DNA of 22,562 bases, from positions 1-22,562 of the IMG/VR virus record IMGVR_UViG_3300012920_000304. One strand, given 5' to 3'. Source of the stretch: a virus. Made by a program: the position numbers and the translations under genes. The stretch's first letter is position 1. Each line of letters begins with the position of its first letter. This document shows, piece after piece, positions 1,271 to 21,900 of the stretch. Below the pieces are notes generated by a model that saw nothing but the letters and a program-made list of their open reading frames with translations, was not told the DNA's origin and searched no databases.

Positions 1271-3568
1271 GTGCCTGATTTCAGAAATTTTTTTTCAAAG
1301 TTCAACAGTAAAAAAGCAGATATCAAAAGAACAGTAACTGGAGTAGTAAAGCCAGGAACTAGAACTCCCGGAGGAGTGGGTGGCACAAGTGCCTACAGTC
1401 GTAGCGGAAGAGATTCATACACAGGAAAGTCAGATGCCGAGCCAAATCCTTTACATCAATTTGCATCCTACAATACTTTGTTCACTCTGAGTGCATTGAC
1501 TTCAGCAGAAATAAGTGATTCTAAAAGTTTCTTCCGTAGCAAACCACATCATATAATTGCGCAGAGTTCTGGTATAGAATCAAAAAATAATTATAGACAA
1601 GGTCCTCCAGGCCCAAGCGGAAATAAATTCAGTGCTGATGACAAAAAAATAATTGAGAAAAACAGTGCAATACGTGAAGCCGCTAATAAGTCCAGTTTGG
1701 AGTTTCAACAAAACAGAGACATTTATTTCAAAAATGTTGAAATACTAAGTGTGCCTGGATACAATGAAAAAAGGCGACTTACAAGTGCAACTAAAATTGA
1801 CATTGAATTAGTCGAGCCTTATGGTTTAACTTTTTTAGACAAAGTAAGGGCGGCCGCTTTCAAAAACGGTTTCTTAGATCATTTGACAGCACCTTTTTTG
1901 CTGACCATTGAGTTCAGAGGATTTGATGAAAACGGAAAGCCTCTTTTAAAGGAGACCGAAGCACTGAAGCGTGTTATCCCCGTAAAATTAATGACTTGTG
2001 AAATAGATGTGAATCAAGGTGGATCTTACTATAGGATATCAGCAATACCCTACGACGAATTTGGATTGCAAAATCTTTACATTTATCCTAGAACATCTGG
2101 AGAATTACGTGGAGAGAAACTTACCATCAGTGACGCAGTGTCAAAATTGGAAACTTTGTTAAATGAGCAAAACAAAGAAGAAACCAAAGGCGAGTTTAAC
2201 AGTAAACCAGATCAGTATCAGATCACTGTTGACGAAACTTTACTGGAAAACGGCGAAGAAATAGATTACAAAATATTGAACCAAGCAGGAATGGGAAAAA
2301 CCGCTACAGAAGGTCCAGGAGGCAATTTCACATACAAATATATTCCCATATCAACCGGAGTTAGTGTTTTGAAGGTTTTAGAAGAAATTATGAAATCCAA
2401 TAAAAATTTTGGCAAGAAAACATTTGATGAGTGGGCCAACAAGATTCAAAAAATGGGCAGTGCAGGATCCAATGATTATAATGCGGCCACTGATTTATAT
2501 TTCAAATATTTCCGTATAAGAAGTAACATTGTGCCTGGTGAGTTTGATCCAATCAGACAGACCAGTCAGAAGAAAGTCATAATTGTAGTGGAGCCTTACT
2601 ACATCAATGCATACAACCTGGCATCAGCAGGCATACACAACGGAGCCAGCCTACAGACCTACATAGCAAAACGCTACAATTATATTTTTACAGGAGAAAA
2701 TGTTGATATATTGGATCTTGGAATCAACTACAAAGTTGCCTATTATCAAACTAGGCTGAAAGATCTTGACGCCAAAGATACTAAGGATTTCAAAAAAAGT
2801 AACACGCCTGAAACAAAAGACACCGATACTCCGTCAGGCCAGACAGTTCCTGCGCAGGGAATACCAGATGTACTATTAACACAAACAGAAGTAGGATTGG
2901 CCAAAACAGAGAGCGGAAATAATGCCACAAAGGTTGACCCACAGACCGAACAATTTTTTGACGCTATCACAAATCCAACCGCTGACATGGTTATAATTAG
3001 GATGGAAATATTAGGTGACCCTGCCTGGCTAGGGCAGTCACAGTTCATGCCTCCCAGTCCGCGTCCACGTGGTCCTGGCATATCTACCGATAACAACATT
3101 GCCTATTTCCGTGGCGGGCAAAAAACAAACGTATGGAATCCAGAATTAAAATGTTACAACAGCGAAGCGGCAGAGCCAGTGATTGACCTACAATTTGTGG
3201 TACCAGATGACATAGATGACGTGAAAGGCACATACGATATTTCAAGTTCTCAACGAGCCATTTTTTCCGGACTATATAAAGTTTATCAAGTAAGGCACAG
3301 CATGGTAGATGGTAAATTTACACAAGAACTAACTATGGTAAGATATAATAATCAAGACAGACCTGCAAGTTCCGGAGTCAGCAACAAAACAATTACGACC
3401 ACGAACGGTATCATACAAAACGGAACATCAGGGCCACCTGCTAGTGCAAGATTTGGAAAAAATTATGGTAATCGCAGTAGTGCAAACAATGTTCCACCAA
3501 GCCAAAGAAGCAGGCGATCTAGCAATCAACCAAGAAAAATTCAGCAACCAGAAGGAGGCAGTTTCTAA
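1271..3568 (+). CDS. Probable baseplate hub protein (structural counterpart of gp27)
   Basis: A 765-residue structural protein between gp53 and the gp5 spike. Marine T4-like phages usually carry an unnamed virion protein here. I infer it is the hub that holds the spike trimer, as gp27 (391 residues) does in T4. Supporting signs are a barrel-like region at residues about 149-275 (KNVEILSVPGY, then LTIEFRGFDENG and SYYRISAIPYDEF), a second at about 435-495 ending INYKVAYYQTRLKD, a GDPAWLG motif near residue 580, and a late YKVYQVRHSMVDGKFTQEL. That last pattern (V-x-x-V-x-H, G-x-F-x-x-x-L) is typical of contractile-tail hubs such as P2 gpD. Residues 1-150 and the last 80 are low-complexity and basic. 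The tail holds SANNVPPS (737-744), repeated in gp5. Start is GTG with AGGAG six bases before; the stop abuts the gp5 ATG. The hub role rests on position and weak motif likeness. Confidence 0.6.
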   Translation: MPDFRNFFSKFNSKKADIKRTVTGVVKPGTRTPGGVGGTSAYSRSGRDSYTGKSDAEPNPLHQFASYNTLFTLSALTSAEISDSKSFFRSKPHHIIAQSSGIESKNNYRQGPPGPSGNKFSADDKKIIEKNSAIREAANKSSLEFQQNRDIYFKNVEILSVPGYNEKRRLTSATKIDIELVEPYGLTFLDKVRAAAFKNGFLDHLTAPFLLTIEFRGFDENGKPLLKETEALKRVIPVKLMTCEIDVNQGGSYYRISAIPYDEFGLQNLYIYPRTSGELRGEKLTISDAVSKLETLLNEQNKEETKGEFNSKPDQYQITVDETLLENGEEIDYKILNQAGMGKTATEGPGGNFTYKYIPISTGVSVLKVLEEIMKSNKNFGKKTFDEWANKIQKMGSAGSNDYNAATDLYFKYFRIRSNIVPGEFDPIRQTSQKKVIIVVEPYYINAYNLASAGIHNGASLQTYIAKRYNYIFTGENVDILDLGINYKVAYYQTRLKDLDAKDTKDFKKSNTPETKDTDTPSGQTVPAQGIPDVLLTQTEVGLAKTESGNNATKVDPQTEQFFDAITNPTADMVIIRMEILGDPAWLGQSQFMPPSPRPRGPGISTDNNIAYFRGGQKTNVWNPELKCYNSEAAEPVIDLQFVVPDDIDDVKGTYDISSSQRAIFSGLYKVYQVRHSMVDGKFTQELTMVRYNNQDRPASSGVSNKTITTTNGIIQNGTSGPPASARFGKNYGNRSSANNVPPSQRSRRSSNQPRKIQQPEGGSF
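3479..3502 (+). repeat. SANNVPPS motif in the hub C-terminal tail (copy 1)
   Basis: Residues 737-744 of the hub read SANNVPPS, followed by Q-R. The same eight residues, followed by M-R, occur near the gp5 C-terminus at 5693-5716. The two DNA copies differ only at a few third positions. Confidence 0.75.
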
Positions 3569-6016
3569 ATGAAGGACTATGTAAGAGGTCACGTATCTAC
3601 ACCCAAGGCTCCAGGTTCTGATCAATCATGGGGAGAACTTAATGCAGGGCCTTACATTGGTACTGTGAAAAACAATATTGATCCACTCAGAATGGGAAGA
3701 CTACAAGTAAATATTCCTTCACTGTCAAAGACTGCTGACCCATCTACAGATAATTTAATTACGTGCGAGTACCTTTCACCTTTCTATGGTGCCAAAGACA
3801 TAAGGCACAATATACCAGGTTCAACAAAATATTCAGCCAGTCAACACAGTTATGGATTCTGGGCAGTGCCACCTGACATTGGCACTAGAGTGTTAGTTAT
3901 TTTTGCAGAAGGCAAAATGGACGAAGCGTTTTGGATAGGCTGTGTGCAAGAGCCAGTCACCAATCACATGATTCCTGGTATTGCGGCCAGTGAAAAAACA
4001 TGGGACAAAAGTTCAGGAGGCCCGGCCGGACAGTTTTCCAGCAACATAGATAAAGAAAAAACATACGGAACAAAAGAGGTTCCAGCAGGTGAATTGAATA
4101 GAACAGCACCAGATTCAGATCCAGGAAGAAACTATGATAATTTTAATAAACCAATTCACCCTTTGGCAGATCTATTGGCTCAACAAGGTTTAAGTGCAGA
4201 TGATGTACGTGGAACAACCACAAGTTCAGCACGTAGAGAAACACCAAGTGCCGTAATGGGTATAAGCACACCAGGAAGAAAAGATTTGTCTACTACTGAA
4301 CAACCTGTGGGTACAAAGGATGCAAAATTCAATGATTTTGTCACTAGGGGTATAGGGCACACTTTTGTAATGGATGACGGTGCAGTGGATGGAACAAATC
4401 AACTTATACGACTACGAACCGCGACTGGTCACCAGATGCTTTTGCATGACACAGACGGTGTGGTCTATATTGCCAATGGATCTGGTAACAGTTGGCTTGA
4501 GATGAGTCCAGACGGAAAAATTTATATTTTTGCACAAGAAGGATTTAACCTCAGAGGCGATGGAGATTTTGAATTACATTCTGGAGGAAATATTTCATTT
4601 CACGCAAAAAATGATATAAGGTTCACTGCAGAAGGAAGTGTTATTAACAATGCTGAAAATTATCTTTTAAACATTGGCAAAAAGGGAATTTTTCACAACG
4701 CCGAGGAAGGATCAATTAGGTCTGCCGGACGTGATGGAATCACATCTTACACGCAAGGAGTACAACTACACGGCGCAGGAGGAAGAATTGACCTTGCAGG
4801 TGCCCAGGTACACTTCAACTCGGTGGCGGCACAACCAACATGGGGTCCTAGTTGGCTTAATCCCGATGCAGTTGGAATAGTCACAGACGAAAGTCAAAAC
4901 GATGTTAACATCACAGTTGGTCCAGGCGAAAGACTTGAGGCTAACACTGCCAAAACAAAAACAACTGTATCAAATCTTGTGACACATGAACCTTTTACTA
5001 GAGCGCCATCGGCGGTGATTGAAACAGTTTCGCAGTGGCAGGATCCTGTAAAATGGAAACAATTGAGTGAGACTCCTGGAACATTAGAGTACATGGCACA
5101 GAAGAATAGAGAAAATAAAAATCCAAGTGTTGCTAAGACACAGTTTCTAGCAGACCAACAGAAATATATTTCAGACAACAGTCTACCACCTTCTTTAAGA
5201 AACAAAAACATTACACAAAAATCTTCAACTGATATCACCAGCATTATAGGTAAACTGCAGAAAAAACAAACTTTGAACAGAACTGAACTTAAGACATTAT
5301 CTGACACTGGTATATACAATGCCAGAGAAGCCAGAATTGCAGGGCAGTCAGTTGCAGAAAATGTTAACGCAAACGGATCAGTGATTATTTCAAAAGCCAA
5401 ACGAACACTTAAAGATATTGATGCCTCCGGTATGTTTAAAGGTAAAAAGACAGGCGGATTCAATAATCTTGACGTGGGCAAAGCCAAAGAATTATATGAT
5501 ACCTTTGCTGGAAAATACAATGACATTTATAATGTGGCAACAGTGATTCCAAATTTATCCAAAGATGATGTGGGCAGTTTGATTATCAACAAAGTAACTG
5601 GAGGTAATATCACAAGTCTTTCAGCGCCGGTTGTGCAGAAACAGGCAATTAAATATCTATCAAAAAACATAGGGAAATTTTTTAGTAGAGGCAGTGCAAA
5701 TAATGTACCTCCAAGCATGAGAGGCACAGCCTCAGGCAAAATTGCACAACTAGGAGCCACGTTCAAAGCGGGTCTAAGTTCAGCAGTCAGTAGCATAGGA
5801 AAATTTTTCAGTGATGCAAGACTCAAAGAAGACGTACATAAAATAGGCGTATCACCACAAGGAATCAACATCTATATGTTTAAATACAAACACAGCAAAG
5901 GCACATATCAAGGAGTATTGGCCCAAGAGGTACCGTGGGCGAGTGAGATGACAGATTCTGGTTATTGGATGGTTGATTATGCAAAACTTGATGTGGACTT
6001 TAGGAGATTGAACTAA
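3569..6016 (+). CDS. 5: Baseplate central spike gp5 (no lysozyme domain, S74 C-terminus)
   Basis: An 815-residue spike protein, expected to form a trimer at the baseplate tip. Domains in order: an OB-fold at residues about 28-130 (GTVKNNIDPLRMGRLQVNIP, then YGFWAVPPDIGTRVLVIFAEG and FWIGCV), a Ser/Thr/Pro-rich linker (about 135-260), a gp5C/VgrG-like beta-helix at about 263-420 (GHTFVMDDG, IRLRTATGHQMLLHDTDGVV, then repeating short strands), a long mostly helical or disordered extension (about 430-745) with SANNVPPS at 709-716, and a short S74 intramolecular chaperone domain at 748-815. T4 gp5 (575 residues) has a lysozyme domain between OB-fold and helix. I see no such domain, so this spike should not digest peptidoglycan itself. 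The start is strongly supported by AAGGAGG at 3552-3558, ten bases before the ATG. The stop overlaps gp25 as TAATG. Family assignment is firm; the role of the long extension is unknown. Confidence 0.88.
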   Translation: MKDYVRGHVSTPKAPGSDQSWGELNAGPYIGTVKNNIDPLRMGRLQVNIPSLSKTADPSTDNLITCEYLSPFYGAKDIRHNIPGSTKYSASQHSYGFWAVPPDIGTRVLVIFAEGKMDEAFWIGCVQEPVTNHMIPGIAASEKTWDKSSGGPAGQFSSNIDKEKTYGTKEVPAGELNRTAPDSDPGRNYDNFNKPIHPLADLLAQQGLSADDVRGTTTSSARRETPSAVMGISTPGRKDLSTTEQPVGTKDAKFNDFVTRGIGHTFVMDDGAVDGTNQLIRLRTATGHQMLLHDTDGVVYIANGSGNSWLEMSPDGKIYIFAQEGFNLRGDGDFELHSGGNISFHAKNDIRFTAEGSVINNAENYLLNIGKKGIFHNAEEGSIRSAGRDGITSYTQGVQLHGAGGRIDLAGAQVHFNSVAAQPTWGPSWLNPDAVGIVTDESQNDVNITVGPGERLEANTAKTKTTVSNLVTHEPFTRAPSAVIETVSQWQDPVKWKQLSETPGTLEYMAQKNRENKNPSVAKTQFLADQQKYISDNSLPPSLRNKNITQKSSTDITSIIGKLQKKQTLNRTELKTLSDTGIYNAREARIAGQSVAENVNANGSVIISKAKRTLKDIDASGMFKGKKTGGFNNLDVGKAKELYDTFAGKYNDIYNVATVIPNLSKDDVGSLIINKVTGGNITSLSAPVVQKQAIKYLSKNIGKFFSRGSANNVPPSMRGTASGKIAQLGATFKAGLSSAVSSIGKFFSDARLKEDVHKIGVSPQGINIYMFKYKHSKGTYQGVLAQEVPWASEMTDSGYWMVDYAKLDVDFRRLN
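5693..5716 (+). repeat. SANNVPPS motif in gp5 (copy 2)
   Basis: Residues 709-716 of gp5 repeat the octapeptide of the hub tail, here 39 residues before the S74 domain. A shared docking or processing signal is possible; the sequence does not show which. Confidence 0.75.
5810..6013 (+). other. S74-type intramolecular chaperone/autoprocessing domain at the gp5 C-terminus
   Basis: Residues 748-815 begin SDARLKED and continue with KIGVSPQGINIYMFKYK and YQGVLAQEV. This is the compact form of the peptidase S74 domain found at the ends of many phage fibre proteins. In the family, the domain helps a trimeric beta structure fold and then cuts itself off before the first serine, using a Ser/Lys pair five residues apart. 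Here S748 and K753 keep that spacing. Cleavage would remove 68 residues. The domain is shorter than the endosialidase type and lacks its long helical part. Confidence 0.8.
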
Positions 6017-6429
6017 TGGCATACGGAGACAGTGGCGACAGCGGTAACGCAAGTAAAGGTATTACTTTCAAAGGTTTTTCGTCAAGAGCAGACAGGCAGA
6101 ACTTTAAGTTATATGACTTTGAATGTGCTAAACAAGATTTAATCAATCGTCTTTCTGTGCGTAAGGGAGAACGTGTTGAAAATCCTGAATTTGGTACTAT
6201 AATATACGATGCTTTGTTTGAACCTTTGACAGAGGATCTTAAAGAACAGATCATTGAGGATGTTACTGAAAATTTAAATGCTGATCCACGTATCAGCACC
6301 GAGGAAATTACAGTATCTGAAGCAGACAAAGGCATTGCCATACAGGCTTCCATACGATACGTGCCACTAGATATCACAGAAAAACTACGGTTTTCATTTG
6401 ATGAAAACTCTGCTTTACGTCTATCTTAA
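6016..6429 (+). CDS. 25: Baseplate wedge protein gp25
   Basis: A 137-residue protein, close to the 132 residues of T4 gp25. The conserved gpW/gp25 core is seen at residues about 36-100: YDFECAKQDLINRL, RKGERVENPEFGTIIYDALF and EPLTEDLKEQI. The EPLT segment lies where the family's conserved E-P-R-type motif sits, with P kept and R replaced. In contractile systems, gp25 joins the sheath's first ring to the wedge core and is one of the most conserved baseplate proteins. It starts at ATG 6016, sharing one base with the gp5 stop, with AGGAG at 6002-6006 nine bases upstream. It is the last gene before the second late promoter. Confidence 0.88.
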   Translation: MAYGDSGDSGNASKGITFKGFSSRADRQNFKLYDFECAKQDLINRLSVRKGERVENPEFGTIIYDALFEPLTEDLKEQIIEDVTENLNADPRISTEEITVSEADKGIAIQASIRYVPLDITEKLRFSFDENSALRLS

Positions 6430-9400: not shown

Positions 9401-9975
9401 GTTATTCAGGAACATTAAATCCGCTTAAGAGTTTATCTGATCAAATCATATATCATCCTGTAAAATATAAAATTTTATTTGGAAAAAATGCAGAGGAAAA
9501 TTTACAAGCCACTTTCAAAGTTGTTAAAAATCCAGGTACAAATGTATCAGATGCTGTCATTAAGACTAGAATAATTGCCGCAATGAATCAGTTTTTTGCA
9601 TTAGATAATTGGGATTTTGGTGACAGTTTTTATTTTACAGAATTAGCCGCTTACATACACAATCAGTTAGCACCAGATTTGTTAACATTATTGATTGTTC
9701 CAAACCAGTCAGGACAGAGTTTTGGGTCTCTGTTTCAGATTGACGCCGGCGCAGACGAAATTTTTATCAGTGGGGCCACCGTTGATGATGTTTCAATAAT
9801 ATCAGCAGTGGGTGCCAACCAATTGGTTGCATCTGGAACTGTGGTAACATCAACAACAAATACAACAACTGGTACAAGCACTACTTCGGGATCAGCAGTG
9901 TCAGGCTCTACTACGTCCGGATCTTATTCTTCGGGATCAAGTTCATCATCAGGCAGTAGTGGGGCAGGATACTAA
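6472..9975 (+). CDS. 6: Baseplate wedge protein gp6, extended form
   Basis: A 1,167-residue wedge protein; T4 gp6 has 660. In T4, gp6 dimers form the inner ring of the baseplate. The N-terminus (residues 1-125) carries the family pattern: DWRKIYQAFQQADFKSYDFE, LIDLIAYMAQSLSFRVDLNA, then RENFLETAERRNSILRLARL. A J-like region follows (GDGVFSNLPLGTFRVYAR near 345, and AEDYQVMP near 435). The C-terminal core (about 985-1110) has LSDQIIYHPVKYKILFGKN, NWDFGDSFYFTELAAYIHNQ and ADEIFISGATVDD. The added length lies mainly in residues about 540-930, rich in Asp, Asn and Thr. The last 44 residues are an almost pure Ser/Gly/Thr tail. There is no clear ribosome site before the ATG; a short leader from the late promoter may explain this. 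The stop overlaps the giant gene start as TAATG. Confidence 0.88.
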   Translation: MATTDRQNRLLVAEDWRKIYQAFQQADFKSYDFETLRRTMITYLRENYPDDFNDFVESSEYVALIDLIAYMAQSLSFRVDLNARENFLETAERRNSILRLARLVSYNPKRNQPATGLLKIDSVSTTQDVFDSTGTNLANQSIIWNDSANSNYREQFTTILNAANQTGQIIGKPRESGTIGGISTEIYTLNTEQNDLPIQSFSSTIGGTSRRFEVVPSTIQESETIYEADPIPGTGLTYVSRNDGAGDSSNNTGYFMLFKQGELLQEDFTVDTAITNFIKSLNNDSINNSDIWLFKLDQFGLPLERWTKVPALSGNNAIYNSLAKSERNLYNVVTKVNDSIDLVFGDGVFSNLPLGTFRVYARSSDNAKFAIQPADMTNIQTIIPYVDKNGGLQSLTVTMSLKASVYNSAETESNDSIREKASQVYYAQNRMITAEDYQVMPLSASQEIIKVRSVNRSASGISRAKEIVDPTGAYSNVNTFADDGIVYREESIQKFTFNFSNRNNIQNVIQADVETKIKEPYSRHFYYLKYGTKDLSSLNATWNSTTTDTNTNTGFFNSGGAISVGDFATSNFKFVKPGALIKFTSPDTREFSNNKLVTAGTNNAEDRLWAKVGSVVDDGSNGGLGNLESGLGPVLLTNVVPNGAIVNSVFANLTTTFSDTLKTDLIDRIEAYEDFGLRYDVESETWKVITSTNLSDSTVFALTNAGDTSDGNLDASWWFKFTNDGSTYTVNYRSLDYIFESESQNMFHFDAQEKIYDYKTGRVVKDTVKILASNTILSSSSAIGYPLTFAVTNTVTEADGFQDNRKVKIGFLDSDDDGVVDNPELFDIFVEPDTAITTKFVFFEKFLSYNNIERFRPYGASNFLVFEKETDVNLATTTYDDNQLFYFYDQLEDVVKKYSATTNTLTTSTDYIARRGRSNVNFQYKHHAGQETRIDPAISNIIDLYLLERTYDNLFRIFLQNGGEEPKPSTSDQLRISYSGTLNPLKSLSDQIIYHPVKYKILFGKNAEENLQATFKVVKNPGTNVSDAVIKTRIIAAMNQFFALDNWDFGDSFYFTELAAYIHNQLAPDLLTLLIVPNQSGQSFGSLFQIDAGADEIFISGATVDDVSIISAVGANQLVASGTVVTSTTNTTTGTSTTSGSAVSGSTTSGSYSSGSSSSSGSSGAGY
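9841..9972 (+). repeat. Ser/Thr/Gly low-complexity tail of gp6
   Basis: Residues 1124-1167 of gp6 are almost only Ser, Thr, Gly, Ala and Val, ending GSSSSSGSSGAGY. The DNA is a run of near-repeated ACA/ACT/TCA/GGA codons. It is probably a flexible tether and lies directly before the giant gene. Confidence 0.85.
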
Positions 9976-12900
9976 TGGCTGACAATCCAATTAATCCACT
10001 TACTAATCAAGAAGTTGTACAACAAGGTTCTACCGAAATACGTAGGACAGTCCAGCATCTACCAGCATTTTATCGGACAGATACTAACCAAAGATTTTTG
10101 GCAAGTACCATGGATGCTTTGGTACAAAAAGGATCTCTAGAAAGACTTGACGGATTTATTGGTAGACAAGATGCATACACTAGAAAATCGGGTGATCGCT
10201 ATCTTTTAGCAACTGACAGGAATAGACTTGCCTATCAATTAGAACCAGCAGTAACATACACTAAAAATGATACCACGTCGGTTAATCCAGAAGACCAAGT
10301 TGAATTTACAGCCACGTATGATGATTATATTAATCAAATAAAATATTTTGGCGGAAAAGTAAGCAATCATGATAGATTGAATAAAGCAAAAATATACAGT
10401 TGGAATCCTGCTATTGATTATGACAAACTAATCAATTACAGAGAGTACTATTGGTTGCCTGAAGGGCCTAATGCATTAGAAATTGATGTGGTTGGTCCGG
10501 GTGCAGTAGTCGAATATAAAGTCACAAATGTGGTGAAAGGTGCCTATAATTTTAGTGTGCAAGATGGAACAAACAACCCAATACTGAAACTTTATAGAGG
10601 TAACACATACAAGTTTGATATAGATGCAAAAGGCCATCCTTTTTGGATCATGACAGAACCTTATAAGGATAAAATTTCAGCAGATGGATCTACATCAACC
10701 ATTTATGATACAGGGGTAACGAACAACGGTACTGACTATGGCACAATTACATTCACAGTGCCAGCCTCAGGTCCAAACACTCTGTATTACCAATGCGGCG
10801 TCCATGATAATATGAACGGAGTATTGCAAATTGCTACGATTCAAGACACCGACGACATAGATCCAGACAAAGAAATTATTGGTGCTAAAAATTATAGCAT
10901 CCGCACTTTAGATCTATCTAATGGTATGAAAATAAAATTTGCAAATAACAAAGTTAGTTCAACATATCAAAACAAAGAATACTATGTTGAAGGTGTTGGA
11001 GAAAAAATTACACTTACAGATGTTAGTAAACTTATCACTCCAGGCAGTTATTCAGAAGAATTTACTGTAGGATACGATTCCTTTATGTTTGACCAACAAC
11101 CTTACGGAAAAGCACTGTATAGGCCTGAATCCCTAGACTACATTACTATAAAAAGAGATTCGCTAGATAGGAACGCATGGTCAAGATACAATAGGTGGTT
11201 CCATCGATCTATAATTGAAGAAGTTGCACGTATTGAAGGATACACTGCTAACCTAAATGAAACAGACAGGGCCAAACGACCTATCATTGAATTTGATTCT
11301 GGTCTTGCTTTATATAATCACGGAACAGTGGCAAAAGATCCTATCAAGGTGATTGATACTGTCACAACTGATGCATTTAGCAGTGTGGTAAACCAACCTG
11401 GATATAGTGTGGATGGCATCACATTAGAAGAAGGAGACAGAATTATATTCACAGCAGATACAGACAATCTTGTGAAAAATAATATTTACGTAGTAAACTT
11501 TATCACTGCAACAGACAGCAGTAAAGTAATAGCGTTAACCAAAGCCACTGATGGCACACCAGCAAATGGTGATTCTGTTTTTGTGGAGTTTGGAACAACA
11601 AACATTGGCAAAACTTTTTATTATGACAGTGCAAGTACATCTTGGAAAGAAGCACAACAAAAGACTAAAGTTAATCAACAACCACTGTTTGGTATGTGGG
11701 ATAACAATCATGTCAGTTTTGATGACGAAACAACATATCCTAACAGTTCGTTTGCAGGTGCTAAGGTTTTTGAATATGCCACTAGTGACAGTGCAACAGA
11801 AGATACTGTCCTTGGCATCAAAGTAAAATATCAAACAATTAACAACATTGGTGATATTGTTTTTGACAGTGATCATACCAACGGGACATTTACCTACAAA
11901 AGTGATAAGCAAATTATTACTAAAAATTTAGCGGAGGGACATTTACATTACACAACCGATAGGACTTCTCACAATTCGAGAAGTGCATGGATTGAAAGGT
12001 TGTCTGAAAGTAAACAGCGGGTAAGTAGAACGTTTGAAGCCACAGAATTTGAAAAACAACTTTTTCCAATAGACTTTTATAAAGATAGTATTGACATTAC
12101 AGACTTGGAGATATCTGTTCAAGTAAATGGGGTTAATAAAAGTATTGAAACAGATTACACCCTCGTTGATGGCACACAAAACAAATATGTTAAATTTGTA
12201 AAAGAATTATCCATAGGTGATCAAATAAGATTAAACGTATACAGTGGCACTGTTAAACATAGCGAAAAAGGCATCTATGAAATTCCGTTAAATTTAGAAA
12301 CTAATACAGAAAATACACAGATAGGTACTTTTACATTTGGACAAATATTAAATCACGTAAAAGATATACAAGATAAAAATAGTGAAGTCACAGGCACTGT
12401 ACCTGGAGTGTCTAATCTACGTGACAAACCTGATGCAAGGCTGAAAGGTGGAAAAATAGTACAACATCAGGGTGCATTACTTCCAGCAATGTTTGGATTG
12501 ATTGATCAACAAGCAAATGTTATTAGATCAATTGAATATGTCAATCAACAATATGAATTATGGTACAACAGTTTCTTGACTAAAGCATTAGGTACAACAT
12601 ACGAAGGTGATCCAATCAGCAGACTGGACGAAATTATTGTAGCAATTGGAGAAGGAAAAAATTCACAATCACCTTTCTACTACGAAGACATGATTGGATA
12701 CGGTGAAAACGTTTCCGTCAGAACATATACTGTCAAAGACGATCTGGAAACAGAATACGCAATTGATAAGCAACACAGTTTGAAATCCTTAAGCAACCGT
12801 GCTGTATATGTGTATCTTAACAATGTACAATTATATGTTGGAGAAGATTACACGTTCAGCGACACAGATGATAGTATTTCAATTTCCGCTACTTTGGCAG

Positions 12901-15900
12901 ATGGTGATATAATCACAATCAGAGATTATGCCAATACAACAGGAAGTTATGTGCCACCTACTCCGACCAAACTAGGTATGTATCCAAAGTATAAACCTGA
13001 AATTATTACTGACGACACATACATTACGTCAACCAGTGTGATTAGAAAACATGACGGTTCGTATACCAAGGCCTATGGCGACGAGCGTGATGATCTTATA
13101 CTTGAACTAGAAAAAAGAATTTACAATAACTGCAAAGTCACATATGATAACAGTATACTAGATATAAACGATGTCATGCCTAGTGTGTTTACAAATACAG
13201 AATACACGCTTACCGAAATAAACGACACTATGAGCAGTGACTTTTATGTTTGGGCCGGAAGAAACAATGTACAATACATCAATAACACGGCGTTCCTTGA
13301 AGGTGAGCCGTTCACCTATAATTATTCAGGATCAACAGATAGAATCAAAGGAGAAAAGTTACCTGGGTATTGGAGAGCGATTTACAAATACTTTTATGAC
13401 ACAGACGCACCCCATCAAAGACCATGGGAGATGTTGGGACACAGCGAGAAGCCAACTGATTGGGAAGCAACATATGGTGCCGCGCCGTATACAGCAGGTA
13501 ATGATGTTCTCTGGACAGCCATAAGCACTGAGCCGGGTAGATACGGAAAACCAGAAATTAAATCTTATCTCCCAGTTGATGCGTCAGGAAACCTATTAGA
13601 TCCAATAACGGCTGGACTAGTTGATGTGCTTGACATTCCAGGTAGAACAAATAGTTGGAAATTTGGTGATCAAGCACCAGCAGAAACGGCATGGCGTAGA
13701 TCCAGTTCATATCCTTTTAGTGTGATCAAAACACTCGCATTAACAAAACCTGCTAAGTTTTTCTCAGTGTATTTTGACAATAGTAGATTGAAGTTAAACA
13801 CTGCAAACAATTATATTGATTCAGACACAGGAGTACGACAGAGATTGGCAACTGCAAAATATCATCTACAGACAGAAACAAATAATTCAACAGGAGTTGT
13901 CACTAGATACCAAACAGCAGGCTACCAACCTTTTGTAGTCAATTACCTCATATCACAAAATTTAGACACGGAAGTTTTCTTCTATAACAAAATGAAAAAT
14001 TTAAGTGTGCAGTTAGCATACAAGTTAGGTGGATTCTCTGATAAAAATAATCTAAAGATTCTTACTGATTCAGTGTCACCAGGATCCACATCAGGGTCCA
14101 AATTTATACCTGATGAGAATTACAAAATTTTGTTTAGGACATCCAATCCGGTAGAGACATTTGATTATTCAGGAGTCTTAATTGAGAAAAATGCAGAGGC
14201 AGGATCAGATGGATCCACTCTTTTAGGTGGATATAGAGTGCTTGGTTATTCTACTATAAAGCCATTTTTCAAATTTCAGTATCCTGTCAAAACTTCTTCG
14301 GCATCTGCTGTCCGCGTAGGGACAAAGGAAGTTAAACAATATAAAGATTATCAAGAAACGATCCAAACTATTCCATATGGCTATGTATTTGACACATTGC
14401 AGGACGTTGCAGATTTTTTACTAGGCTACGGACACTATCTTGAATCGCTTGGATTCAAATTCAACAAATATTCAAAAGAACTAAAGGAAACTGTAAATTG
14501 GAGCAACGCCGTAAAAGAGTTTTTATTTTGGACCACACAGAACTGGTCACCAGGTAGCGCCATTACAGTATCACCAGCCGCAGACGGATTCGAACTAGAC
14601 ACTAACAATACCATTGTTGGTCGATTAAGAAACATTGCTGGTGATTACTCAATGTTAGACGCTGGAGGCAGAAAACTAGATATAAGGGAAGTTTCTACTA
14701 AGCGTATAGGCAAAACATTTGATCTTGGAATCAAAAGTTCAGATATTGGATTATATAATATTTCTTTAAACACTGTTCAAAAAGAACACATTTTGTTATT
14801 TGATAATCGCACAGTTTTTTCTGATATAATCTATGATCCTTACACAGGCTTCAGACAACAACGTCTTAAAGTGGTTGGATGGAAAACAGCAAATTGGAAT
14901 GGTGATTATTATGCTCCTGGATTTATTTTTGATTCTGCAAAAGTAAATTATTGGAGCCGTAACACAGATTACAGAGTAGGTGACACAGTAGAATATCAAG
15001 GCAAATTTTATGTTGCTAAAATAAACCATAATAGTCTATCAAGTTTCGTTACAACTAATTGGACTTTGAAAGACGAAAAGCCTAAACCTCAATTGATTCC
15101 AAATTTTGACTATAAAATTTCGCAATTCAACAATTTTTATGACCTTGAGTCTAACAACTTTGATGAAGCACAAGAAAGACTGGCACAACGTTTAATTGGA
15201 TATCAAAATCGAGATTATCTAGAAAATTTATTTGTCAATGATGTTTCCCAATATAAATTTTATCAAGGATACATTAGAGAAAAAGGTACAAAAAATGCTA
15301 TTGATAAATTACTCAAGGCCAAATATGAAGATCAAGATATAACATTGGATCTTTACCCAGAATGGATGATACGTTCTGGTAGATTTGGTAACACTGATAG
15401 TAGAGAGAGTATACAAATAACATTAGACGAGTCAAAATTTGTCCGCAATCCACAAAGCATAGAGTTTTTCAACACAACAACTTTTGATAAGGATTATGAT
15501 AGAAGCCAAGCGGTCGCGGCCACTGGACTCTACTATAAACCTATAGATTATGATCCAAACACAACATTTTCACGTTATGATTATACAAAAGAAAACGTAG
15601 ATAGAGACAACGTGCAGATACTTAAGACTGCAGGATATCCACAACCGGGACAGGTGCAACACACTGCGTTTAATATTGTTGATTTATTGAATTTTGATGT
15701 TGAGTCATTAAAGCGTAATGATTTATTTTGGGTAGCAAACAAGTTCAACGCTGATTGGGACGTGTTCAGACTGTCTAATACTGGATTGAAAATAGTACAA
15801 TTACAATCTGTTGCAGATGGCCTAATTCAAATGACATTTAATGATTCTCATAATTTTGTTCAAGACACAAACAGAACTACCGCAGACTTTTTTGCTATAA

Positions 15901-18900
15901 CAAGTGCTCAGTTGACCGAACTTAACGCTGTGTATCAGGTTAATCAAATCATAGACCATAAAACGATTATAGTAGAGTATGGAGGAGGCACAGCCGAACT
16001 ACCAACATTGGATGATCAATCCACTGCTGACAGTTATGGAAATGTTTTAAAGTTTATATCAGTACGTTTGTCTTCTATGGACAATGTCAATGATATTATA
16101 CACTACAACGATTTCAAAGATAAGGACGCATCATTATCGTTGCCTGGAGATAAAGTTTTCACTGACAGTGATACTTCAGGACTATGGCGAGTCTACGAAA
16201 AGCAAGATCCATATAATTATACGAGACAGTTGTCTCCAAATTCTACAATAGCCAATCAAGATTTTGGATTCCGAGTTGTAGCACGTAATGATGGAAGAAC
16301 AATAGTTGTTTCCTCGCCAACACACAATCAAGGATTTATAAACTTCTTGTTTAGAAACACACCTAGTGGAGTGTTTCAAAATCAAGGGTCAGTTACAACA
16401 ACCGCAGGTGATGATAACACTGGTAGACTTGGGTACAGTCTGTCAATGAGCACAGATGAAAATTTTGTTGTGGCAGGTGCACCTTTTGCCAATAGTCTTG
16501 GATCTGATGGAAGCACAAGATTTTCTGATGCTGGATTAATAAAAATATTTGTTTGGGATCCTAACAGTTTCACATACTCAGCGTTATCAACTAGGCTACC
16601 ACCTACAGATGAAGCAAGTCAAAATTTTGGTTGGGCACACAAGATATGTGAACCATCAGCAGATTCAATTAGAAGTACTCCAGTCAAATACATGTTTGTG
16701 TCTGCACCAGGCATTAGCACTGATACTGGAGCGGTATACATGTATGAGTGGGGAGTTGGCGCAGACGGGTCAACATATGATACTTGGACTCAAAATCTCA
16801 CAATAAGTTCAAACGATGCTGGAACCAATAAGAGATTTGGACATGCATTAGCGGCCAACGATAACGGTGACTTGTTAGCAGTAAGTTCTAAAGCACCAGG
16901 TAAAGCAGGAATGGTTGAAATATTTAGGAGAACATCTCAGAGCAACGATGACAGTGTGGATCACAGTTTTACTCATATACAAACATTAAGCGGTGTGACG
17001 GCTGACGGTTCAAGTATCAACTCAGAATTTGGCCATGATTTAGCCATGAGTAAAGATGGAAACACACTAATAATTACGGCACCAGGTGCAGATCAAACTA
17101 ATCAAGCAGATTCAGGCACAATATATTACTACAAGTGGGACGCTGATGGTGACAGCACTCTAGCCTACACTTTGCAACAAACTATACTGGCACCAGATAC
17201 AGAAAGCAATATGAGATTTGGAAGCAGTATTGATATTAACGATAATGGCAACAGATTAGTGATTGGTGCTGAAAACTTTGGTAACTCAAGAAAAATGTTA
17301 TTTGATAGCGGTGCCACTACTTTTGATTTACAAGACACTGAATTTGTTGATGCAAACACTGGATCAGGTGCTGTGTACACAGCAACATTATATAATACAA
17401 AATATATTATAGATGATAGATTAGTTACAACAGATGTCACCTCAGACGATGATTTTGGTAAAGGAGTTTGTGTAATAGATGATGCTGTATTTGTTGGTGC
17501 GCCCAATGATGATGGAAACATAGGCACAGACGGTAGCACTGTTTTAGAAAATGACGGCACAGTTTCGCTTTTTGATTTGAAAAAGAGTGGAGACTTTGCG
17601 TGGAGTAACATCACAACTGAAACTGCTTTTGTAGATACTACAAAATTAGGACATACATTTGATTTTGATAGAAGGTCTAATCAGATTAGAAATTACTACG
17701 AACTTTATGATCCAGTCAAAGGACAAATACCTGGATTAGCAGATAGAGAAATAAACATCAAGACACCGTGGGATCCTGCAATTTATAATTTTGGTTCCAC
17801 TGCGAATTTCAAGACACCGTGGGCGGAAAAACATGTTGGAGAAACATGGTGGGATCTAAGTAAAGTCAAATGGCTATGGTATGAACAAGACTCACAAGAG
17901 TATAAAACAAATCATTGGGGCAAAACTTTTCCAGGATCTGAAATTCATGTATATGAGTGGATAGAAAGCACTCTATTACCAAGCGAATTTGTAGACGGAA
18001 TACCTGCATTTCCTGATGACAGCAAATACACAGTAAAAGAACGTTACAACTCTGAATTAGACCAGTTTATAAATTATTACTATTACTGGGTAAGAAACAC
18101 CACAACAATTCCAGCAAACAGCGTTGCTGAAAGGAAAAATTCAACATCATTTATTAGTAATTTACTAGCAAATCCGCAAGGGTTAGGAGTAAGATATTTT
18201 GCACCTACAGACACTAACAAAATGATTATTGTGAATGCCAGAAATTTAAGTAACGATTCTATTGTCCTTAATGTAGACATTAGGAAAAATAATTTTGACG
18301 GGTCTGCTCACAGTGTCTGGAAACTGGCCAGAGAAGGAGATCCACAGTATAGACCTGGAACATCTATTGAGCAAAGATGGTGGGACAGTTTAATTGGCAA
18401 AAATGAATCTGGCGACATGGTTCCAGATATTACATTACCCCTAAATGAACGTTATGGTAACAACATAAGACCGAGACAGAGTTGGTATGTAAATCGTTAT
18501 GATGCTCTAAAAGAAATAATAGACTATGCTAACTCAGTATTGAAGAAAAATCAATTATCTGGCACAATTAACTTAGATAATCTTAACAAAGCAGAACCTG
18601 AACCTACTTCTGCAAGTCTAGAATGGGACGCTACTGTTGATACATATGCGGAACTAACATATTTAAACACTGCTGACCTATCAGGTGCTGTCAAATATCT
18701 TGTAAAAGCAGATGAAACTGCTAATAATTTCTGGGCAATATACACTTGGGACGGAACAAGTTTCACAAGAACAAAATTACAATCATACAATTCATCATCA
18801 TATTGGAGTTATGTAGACTGGTATGGTACAGATCCAGAAGTGCATGAAATGATACATGATGAAAATACGCCAATTGATGCCCAAGTGACTTATGAATATG

Positions 18901-21900
18901 AACTTGATTCACTGGATCTTGATGTGGGCAAACACGTGAAAGTCACACAGGCAGACACAGGAGGATGGAAATTGTTTATGAAAACTACAACAGGCTTCAC
19001 AAATGTTGGTGTTGAAAATGGTACAATAAGATTGAGTACAAAACTTTATGATTATTCTCAGGATGCTACTGGATTCGCCGGCGGAGACAATTTTGACGAC
19101 AATTTCTTTGACCAAGAGCCAACAATTGAAACAAGAAATATTTTAACTGCAATAAGAGATGATTTATTCATCAACAGACTGGCGGTTGAATATAATAATT
19201 TATTCTTTATTGGTTTAAGAAAGGTATTAGCAGAACAAACTTATGTTGACTGGTTGTTCAAAACTTCATTTATTAATATCACCAACACAGTAAGACAACT
19301 AGATCAACGTAAAAGTTACACTGCTGGAACTGACAGTTGGGTTGAAAGTTACATAAATGAAGTCAAACCATTCCATTCAAAAATTAGAGAATATAAACTT
19401 GGATACGAATCAACGGACACGCAGGACGGCATATTTTCTGATTTTGATAATCCTGCATTTTACGATAATTCAACAAAGAAAATTCGTAACCTCAATACCA
19501 TAAGTGATACAGATAAACTTACTGAATATCCACATCAGATGTGGTATGACTATCATAAAAAATTTGTAACTTCAATAACAGTATCATATTCTGGATCAGG
19601 ATATGAAACTGCACCAACTGTGACCGTGATAGGCGGCACAACAGGTTCGACAGGCCCATTCCAAATCCAAGGTAACAGCAACAGAGGGACCACTTCTGGC
19701 ACGTATGGTTACTATTATCCATTATTCACTAGTGAACGTCATGCAAAAACTTGGGATAGCCAAAACAACAGCGGAACTGGCACCGCAACTGAGTTTAGTT
19801 TTGATGAATATGAAGGAACATTTTGGATGCCGGATGGTACAACAAACACAGGAAAAAGCACAAGAAACACAGTGTACAAAATGTATGAAACACCTGACAC
19901 GTCAGCGGCAACTGCCACAGCAACAGTGGTTGATGGCCGAGTAACAAAAATAAATTTAGTAAGTAACGGAAAAAACTATACTGCCACGCCAACTGTGGTA
20001 CTGACAGGCGGTAAGAACGATGGTACAACACCAAGTGACACGGCAAGAGCATATGCTAATTTACAAAATGATCTTGTGAGAGATATTGATACCACTATCA
20101 AGTTTGACAGAGTTCATCCAGTTCATGCTGTGGTAGATTGGACTATTAATACTTCTTACGCATATGGACAATTAATTAGATACAACAATGAATTATACAA
20201 GGCCACTGATCATTTTACGTCAAACACCAAATTCAATGACAACATTGGCAAAGTTTATAAAATACGAGGTGATGAAACAGGTTTAACCGCCGCAGATAGA
20301 ACCGCAGGATTCTACACACCAGATTCAGGTATGCCTGGAAATGAATTATCACAACTAATGTCGGGCGTAGATTACGGTGGCACAATGGTGACAGGATTGC
20401 TATTCCGTCAGGGGCAAGGATGGGACAATGCCAATTGGTATGACTATCCGTGGGACAATTTTGGTGACACACGTGTCAAAGCCTTTATTGCTGACGGCTC
20501 TACAAACACATACACGTTCTCAACTGCTCCTGCCAAGTCAGATGTATATTCTGTATACACCACTTTAGGCGATAGCACAAGAACTAAACTGTCAGATGTG
20601 TTTAGAGGAGATGGATCCACAACCAGTTTCCAACTCAGTACTACTCCAGACGAAAATGCTTTGGTAGAGTTCATTCCAATTGACGACGACGGAGTACTGA
20701 CACCAACGGATGATCGAACACTGGATACATTATTAAAAGGTGGCCTATTTAACACTGCTTTAGGCACAGCGGCCAGTGATATACTTACAGACGGTGATCA
20801 ATTTGTATCACCAGAAACAAGTTATGCACCAGAAGAGGCTGTACCAGGCCAAATGTTTGACACAGTTGACATCAAAGTTTACACATCACCAGAGTCTGGA
20901 GTTCCATTTATTACTGAAAATTTATATACAGGAGATGCTGTAACCACTAGTTTTGCATTAGGAGATTTCCCTGGATCTCTTGCATCAGTAACAGTTTCTG
21001 TAGACGGCACAGTCAAACGATTAACCACAGACTACACAGTTGATGTTGGAGACAAAACAATCACATTTGGAAGTGCGCCAGGCCTAGGGAAATCAATCAG
21101 TGTTAGAACTTTTGCTGTATCAGGTGAAAACTACAGAGTATTAGACCAATACCGAGGTGATGGATCAACAACCACATTCACCACAAGCACCAGAGGAGAA
21201 TTTAATTTGGATTCAACTGCCAGTGACATCTACGTGACCATTGACGGAGGCCCAACTACTTTATTTTCAACTACAACCACTGCAAACACAATCACAGTTA
21301 CATTTGACAGTGCACCAGCGGCAAACGCTTTTGTTCAGATTGCTGGTTTCAACAAATCAACCACATCCACAAGAAGTTTTGCAAGTATTAGAAATGAACT
21401 AATCACATTTAACAGTGCCATAACAAGATACACATTGTCGTTTCCTCCAGGAGCAATTGGTCCTCTATCAGGTTTGACAATGATCGAAGTGGGCGGAAAA
21501 ATGTTACGTGGCCCTGACATCAGTTACTATGTTGGAGATGGCACTACCACTAGATATGGATTCAATCCATTGACAGGTTTGGGAGAAGATTCAACATTTA
21601 CAAACACATTAGGTGAAGACAGCACAATTGATCCTGTGAAGACTATCACAGATCCGTCACAAATTGTTGTGCATGTCAATGGGGTGAAACAAGTTCAGAA
21701 CACAGATTATGTGGTGGATCTTGCAGGCACTATTCTGACTGCTGATGAAACTGACACAGTGGACACTACTTTAGTCACAACAGATGTGGCTGGATCTCCA
21801 GACAGGATTTCATTTGTTACAGCACCAGCACAAAATGACCTAATTGCAATTTCCACATTGGTTGATAATCATTACACAGTTGATGGCACAGATGTCATAC

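Follow-up and report, generated by a model that had tools for sequence, protein, structure and literature searches.

A cupredoxin-like domain with a complete predicted type-1 copper ligand set in baseplate-region and tail proteins of marine phages

Introduction

In type-1 copper sites the ligands follow a known order, with a His coming first and a Cys...His...Met loop lying before the last strand. The domain that is studied here, which is located in the 22,562-nt stretch of the virus record IMGVR_UViG_3300012920_000304 that we analysed (the window), has in common with the cupredoxins amicyanin, pseudoazurin, plastocyanin and AcoP the predicted fold and the order His...C-x2-H-x2-M, with the loop length of amicyanin, but it lies within a giant virion protein rather than being a free electron carrier, and its first His is followed by Pro. 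Among phage tail proteins, the immunoglobulin-like domains are known as mobile accessory beta-sandwiches occurring in different virion proteins. Our domain is a mobile insert like them, while they differ from it in fold and have no metal ligands. It is also noted that cyanophages carry a genuine plastocyanin auxiliary gene, petE (PMC3037559). Its product is a copper protein too, but it is a free-standing electron carrier outside the virion.

Within phage particles, the C-terminal domain of cyanophage gp9 (PHROG 677) is homologous to the window domain and has the four ligands in common with it, with the difference that the gp9 copy ends a short connector protein whereas the window copy sits inside a giant one. 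Jumbo phages have giant virion proteins (PHROG 10938; PA5oct, Atu_ph07, SCTP-2, GAP32) that belong to the same family as the window protein and mostly adjoin a gp6-like gene, but have no cupredoxin domain at the site matching the insert. The At5g54830-like domain (PF25489) is the best Pfam match, although it is named after a plant protein. In the open-access literature, mostly at the level of titles and abstracts, we found no report of the domain in virions, which is weak evidence of absence, and the literature on cyanophage structure offered nothing useful on it.

Here, we argue for a reading to which we give somewhat better than even chances, namely that the domain is a mobile, metal-stabilised beta-sandwich module for docking or decoration in marine tail proteins, with a complete predicted type-1 copper site.

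Results and discussion

The window and its tail genes

The window is filled by one block of contractile-tail genes, all on the + strand. They encode a wedge protein resembling gp53 (970-1269), a large structural protein (1271-3568), a hub protein of the gp5 type that includes an OB domain (3569-6016), a gp25-like baseplate wedge protein (6016-6429; PF04965, 2.6e-9; PHROG 261 and 43), a gp6-like baseplate wedge protein with jumbo-phage relatives (6472-9975; PHROG 10646, 7.2e-285) and, directly downstream of the last, a giant virion structural protein (9975-22562, open at the 3' end) of at least 4,196 residues, which matches PHROG 10938, 'virion structural protein', at 1.5e-164. Thus the domain does lie in a giant structural protein adjoining baseplate genes, as the initial annotation had it, with the gp25 and gp6 genes directly upstream. 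The best matches of the gp6-like and giant proteins are in the jumbo phages Phosso, Atu_ph07, PA5oct and SCTP-2, and the annotation of the PA5oct homologue of the giant protein bears the note ESI-MS/MS, which we take to mean detection in particles.

Some other features of the block are recorded here. The hub or spike-type protein at 3569-6016 appears to end in an S74 intramolecular chaperone domain (a weak match; PHROG 6121). A near-identical peptide, SANNVPPS(Q/M)R, is present near the C-termini of this protein and of its neighbour at 1271-3568, and a search through the ORFs of related loci did not recover it. In its central part (13974-18173) the giant protein contains FG-GAP repeats (PF14312, 1.9e-15), with matches to carbohydrate-binding modules just under the cut-off in the same part and weaker ones further on. 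No tRNAs were found within the window, and psbA, as a clue to the host, was absent from all ten related virus records, each of which is possibly a fragment.

The four candidate ligands

The cupredoxin-like domain with its C-terminal edge comprises residues 185-304 of the giant protein (10527-10886, + strand). In the ORF starting at 9975 the four predicted ligands occupy exactly the positions that the initial annotation had given them: His221, the first ligand, in the His-Pro motif GHPFWI (10635-10637); Cys274, the thiolate ligand (10794-10796); His277, the second His ligand (10803-10805); and Met280, the axial ligand (10812-10814), all on the + strand. The last three lie in CGVHDNM, the sole C-x2-H-x2-M among the 4,196 residues, which contain four Cys in total. 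When the giant protein was shuffled 5,000 times, any C-x2-H-x2-M appeared in 0.08% of the shuffles, and one with a His also 30-70 residues upstream in 0.04%. A chance origin of the motif is rejected on these shuffles together with the conservation of the ligands in homologues.

It is known that cupredoxin sites accept other metals and that other phage tail parts use structural metals. From this background it could be argued that the site holds a soft metal other than copper (Zn, Ni, Cd, Hg), or that it is a structural metal staple that is not specific to copper. Both the ligand set and the loop spacing are, however, specifically those of copper sites, and we regard this explanation as quite improbable.

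It had also been suggested that the site might serve as a structural disulphide lock. This is unlikely, since no Cys other than Cys274 is conserved in the stretch of the giant protein over which 55 homologues and the window were compared. Some loci of this set were retrieved with a domain query, and site-less copies are unrepresented in it.

Predicted fold

With 28 relatives AlphaFold2 gave a model of the domain with pLDDT 74.9, and with 49 more diverse relatives one with pLDDT 89.5 and pTM 0.83. In the better model six strands are assigned, at domain residues 20-23, 27-33, 39-42, 71-77, 85-90 and 97-103. His221 directly precedes a strand, Cys274 (domain position 90) ends the strand 85-90, and His277 and Met280 (positions 93 and 96) are in the loop before the last strand 97-103. 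The strand pattern that had been expected around the ligands is therefore borne out by the model, and the arrangement of a His in the N-terminal half and a short Cys...His...Met loop before the last strand is that of a type-1 site.

When compared with the PDB by Foldseek, the first model gave 23 matches at E<=0.001, to cupredoxins such as AcoP, amicyanin, pseudoazurin and rusticyanin. The PDB title of one of these, 3cvd, gives no protein name; we take this entry to be a plastocyanin. For the better model nearly all the matches are cupredoxins with probability near 1, the best being a pseudoazurin with an engineered amicyanin loop; the TM-scores to solved cupredoxins are about 0.4-0.5 and a single Foldseek E-value is <=0.001. 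The Greek-key beta-sandwich of the cupredoxin superfamily is thus found in the predicted structure, and the comparison with cupredoxins that the initial annotation had proposed comes out in its favour. Searching the PDB with the single sequence gave chance-like matches only. The fold class is well supported, but the domain is a distant member of the cupredoxins.

Note also that stand-alone 'beta-sandwich proteins' from metagenomic Pithovirus and Marseillevirus genomes (BFVD A0A481Z6J5 and others) match the predicted fold, one of them at 36% identity.

Relation to curated families

The profile of PHROG 677 is matched at 1.7e-20 over positions 327-409 of its 412, which places the window domain with the C-terminal domain of gp9, and the gp9 loci have the same four ligands as the window copy. 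Among the Pfam families PF25489 comes nearest, with 38 of the 49 family members at E<=0.1 and the best member at 4.7e-8, while the window copy scores 24.5 bits against a cut-off of 27. The curated copper families lie further off: four of the 49 members match TIGR02657 (amicyanin), with a best E of 0.0047, and one matches PF00127 (plastocyanin/azurin) at E 0.02, all below the respective cut-offs, and the window copy matches neither. Searched against PDB sequences, the family profile has as its best match, which is weak (E 0.019), an azurin with the short loop CAAHAAM, and its HPF falls opposite HPIHLHG of a multicopper oxidase in the alignment.

The label 'amicyanin-type' given initially consequently holds for the loop spacing only, since the first ligand is followed by Pro, as in HPIHLHG of the multicopper oxidase. 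Because the cut-offs of the curated copper families were not reached, the apt name is 'cupredoxin-like domain with a complete type-1 ligand set' and not 'amicyanin'.

Conservation and loss of the ligands

To follow the ligands among homologues, loci were collected with a query of 400 residues downstream of the cupredoxin-like domain, which is free of the domain and so places no selection on it. Each of the 26 close loci, which represent 19 distinct stretches, has the domain, and none lacks any of the four ligands. Seven more distant loci were also found: in L074-L076 the domain is retained but all four ligands are missing, and L072, L073, L077 and L078 have an interrupted domain without the Cys, L078 retaining a His. 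In L072, L073 and L078 the domain is apparently split by a large insertion. After the insertion comes a last-strand motif, which in L072 reads FYQDNTDENRFGKI.

Over a wider set the first His and C-x2-H-x2-M are retained in 83 of 86 domain copies, where the 86 are the distinct full copies collected together with those of four named phages (S-SCSM2R, DSL-LC01, Baldr and Melnitz-1, all four with the ligands present), the interrupted copies and the partial L076 being excluded; in eight rows the first His was scored as missing through alignment slips, the His sitting just past the scored column. The ligands are near-invariant among copies that are about 30-45% identical to the window copy and that reside in different host proteins. 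Common loss of the Cys or of either His, by which the initial annotation could have been overturned, is thus not what the homologues show. In the three failing copies, L033, L074 and L094, both His ligands and the Cys are gone together and the domain is kept, with the Met remaining in two of the three. The tree of copies needs three separate losses, of which only one is forced by well-supported branches, and the losses are too few for significance in an independent-pairs test on the tree. A concerted loss of the ligands is therefore suggestive rather than proven. Moreover, copper would be dispensable in some lineages, because three copies have lost the predicted site while the domain stayed.

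These data bear directly on the main sceptical rival to a metal-binding module, according to which the domain is a cupredoxin-shaped scaffold only, metal-free in the virion, with the ligand residues kept for packing or by common descent. Such a scaffold would explain that L033, L074 and L094 keep the domain without the ligands and that the divergent L072, L073 and L078 have no Cys and a large insertion, and it is consistent with the weak sequence matches to copper-protein models. It has difficulty, however, with ligands that stay near-invariant at about 30-45% identity in different host proteins and that vanish together rather than singly, and on balance we consider it unlikely.

Insertion and spread of the domain

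In the giant protein the domain is inserted between the conserved segments YYWLPEG and EIIGAKNY. In PA5oct and SCTP-2 the sequence continues from the conserved YYW segment to the IIG segment with no domain between, and in Atu_ph07 a different short stretch is present at the site. When the domain was used in tblastn, it was found in 330-353 of 50,697 phage records, the number varying with the query copy, and the jumbo relatives were not among these matches. The carriers are nearly all Synechococcus and Prochlorococcus phages, together with a few pelagiphages and one lake actinobacterial phage. The commonest place of the domain is the C-terminus of gp9, the connector between baseplate wedge and tail fibre; it is also present in P-SSM2, within a collagen-like fibre protein, and in the podovirus P-SCSP2, within a hypothetical protein that is fibre-like. 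A related domain type, whose query sequence is itself present in the records, was found in the tail fibres of phages of two further groups, the pelagiphages and the Methylophilales phages. The domain of the initial annotation is therefore one of hundreds of occurrences in the tail and baseplate proteins of marine phages.

Outside phage records, no plasmid-borne relatives were found at E<=0.01, and a scan of genome contigs gave five loci, all with domains of the giant-protein type and all in MAG contigs, which are most likely phage contigs binned with bacteria. Cellular relatives are rejected on the basis of this one scan.

Several neighbouring observations may be added. In S-ShM2 the gene after gp9, SShM2_097 (L038:3262-6243), encodes another, longer version of the domain, in which C-x2-H-x2-M is present. 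The N-terminal 700 residues of the giant structural protein of the same phage, inspected by eye, contain no such domain and look unrelated to the window protein. In S-SCSM2R a 168-residue domain protein (L139:2728-3234), whose neighbours are labelled FhaB and S8 peptidase, has the annotation PetE; this may be the tail-type domain mislabelled as plastocyanin.

The distribution has to be considered for another explanation, close to what the initial annotation had in mind, in which the domain functions in redox chemistry or in copper-dependent adsorption: it would exchange electrons or copper with a host surface or periplasmic partner, or act as a redox switch in attachment or assembly. Electron-transfer cupredoxins need such a complete and strongly conserved type-1 ligand set, and the connector and fibre proteins that carry the domain are near the host contact. 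By contrast, no common redox partner is evident because the hosts differ widely (cyanobacteria, Pelagibacter, Methylophilales, an actinobacterium), the jumbo relatives have no domain, and some copies keep the fold with the site lost. We thus think it slightly less probable still than the metal-free scaffold.

Proposed model

Based on these results, we propose the following for the docking and decorating module. Residues ~185-304 would form a cupredoxin-fold module inserted into a jumbo-type baseplate-region protein. It would belong to a family of such domains in virions, plugged by marine phages into proteins of the baseplate-fibre junction. Since the full type-1 ligand set of His, Cys, His and Met is retained, one copper ion is most likely bound by it, and the bound copper would make the ligand loop rigid. 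The module, presumably exposed, would then hold neighbouring tail or fibre subunits or touch the cell surface. Copper binding, surface exposure and the docking role are what we infer; the last is the most likely role because the insert is dispensable in homologues, the hosts are unrelated and the carriers are structural rather than enzymatic.

In favour of a module are the predicted fold, the retention of the ligands, the loss of the ligands as a unit, the absence of the insert from PA5oct and SCTP-2, and the carriers being baseplate and fibre proteins across cyanomyoviruses, podoviruses, pelagiphages and Methylophilales phages. Against a copper module are the modest TM-scores, the curated copper families staying below cut-off and the three site-less copies.

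Conclusions

The domain is widespread as a copper-type site in ocean phage tails and is apparently undescribed in the open-access literature as seen mostly through titles and abstracts. Even if it is metal-free, a module common to jumbo-type, T4-like and podovirus tails accounts for many segments of hypothetical tail proteins, and it calls for caution against labelling such matches as plastocyanin auxiliary genes.

If copper is bound, the T4-like cyanophages, which are among the best studied ocean viruses, would have a metal centre in their host-contact machinery that is described as such in none of the records and papers covered here, and phage tails would thereby be linked to the trace-metal chemistry of seawater, which can be tested with cultured phages such as S-ShM2, Syn9 and P-SSM2. 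A stronger proposal, which we hold to be unlikely, is that a large part of the ocean phages have copper-loaded type-1 centres in their virions, placed where baseplate and fibres meet, with copper binding or redox state controlling adsorption or tail stability. If this proposal is true, such centres would add a new class to the virion metal sites, and seawater would contain a pool of copper borne by phages.
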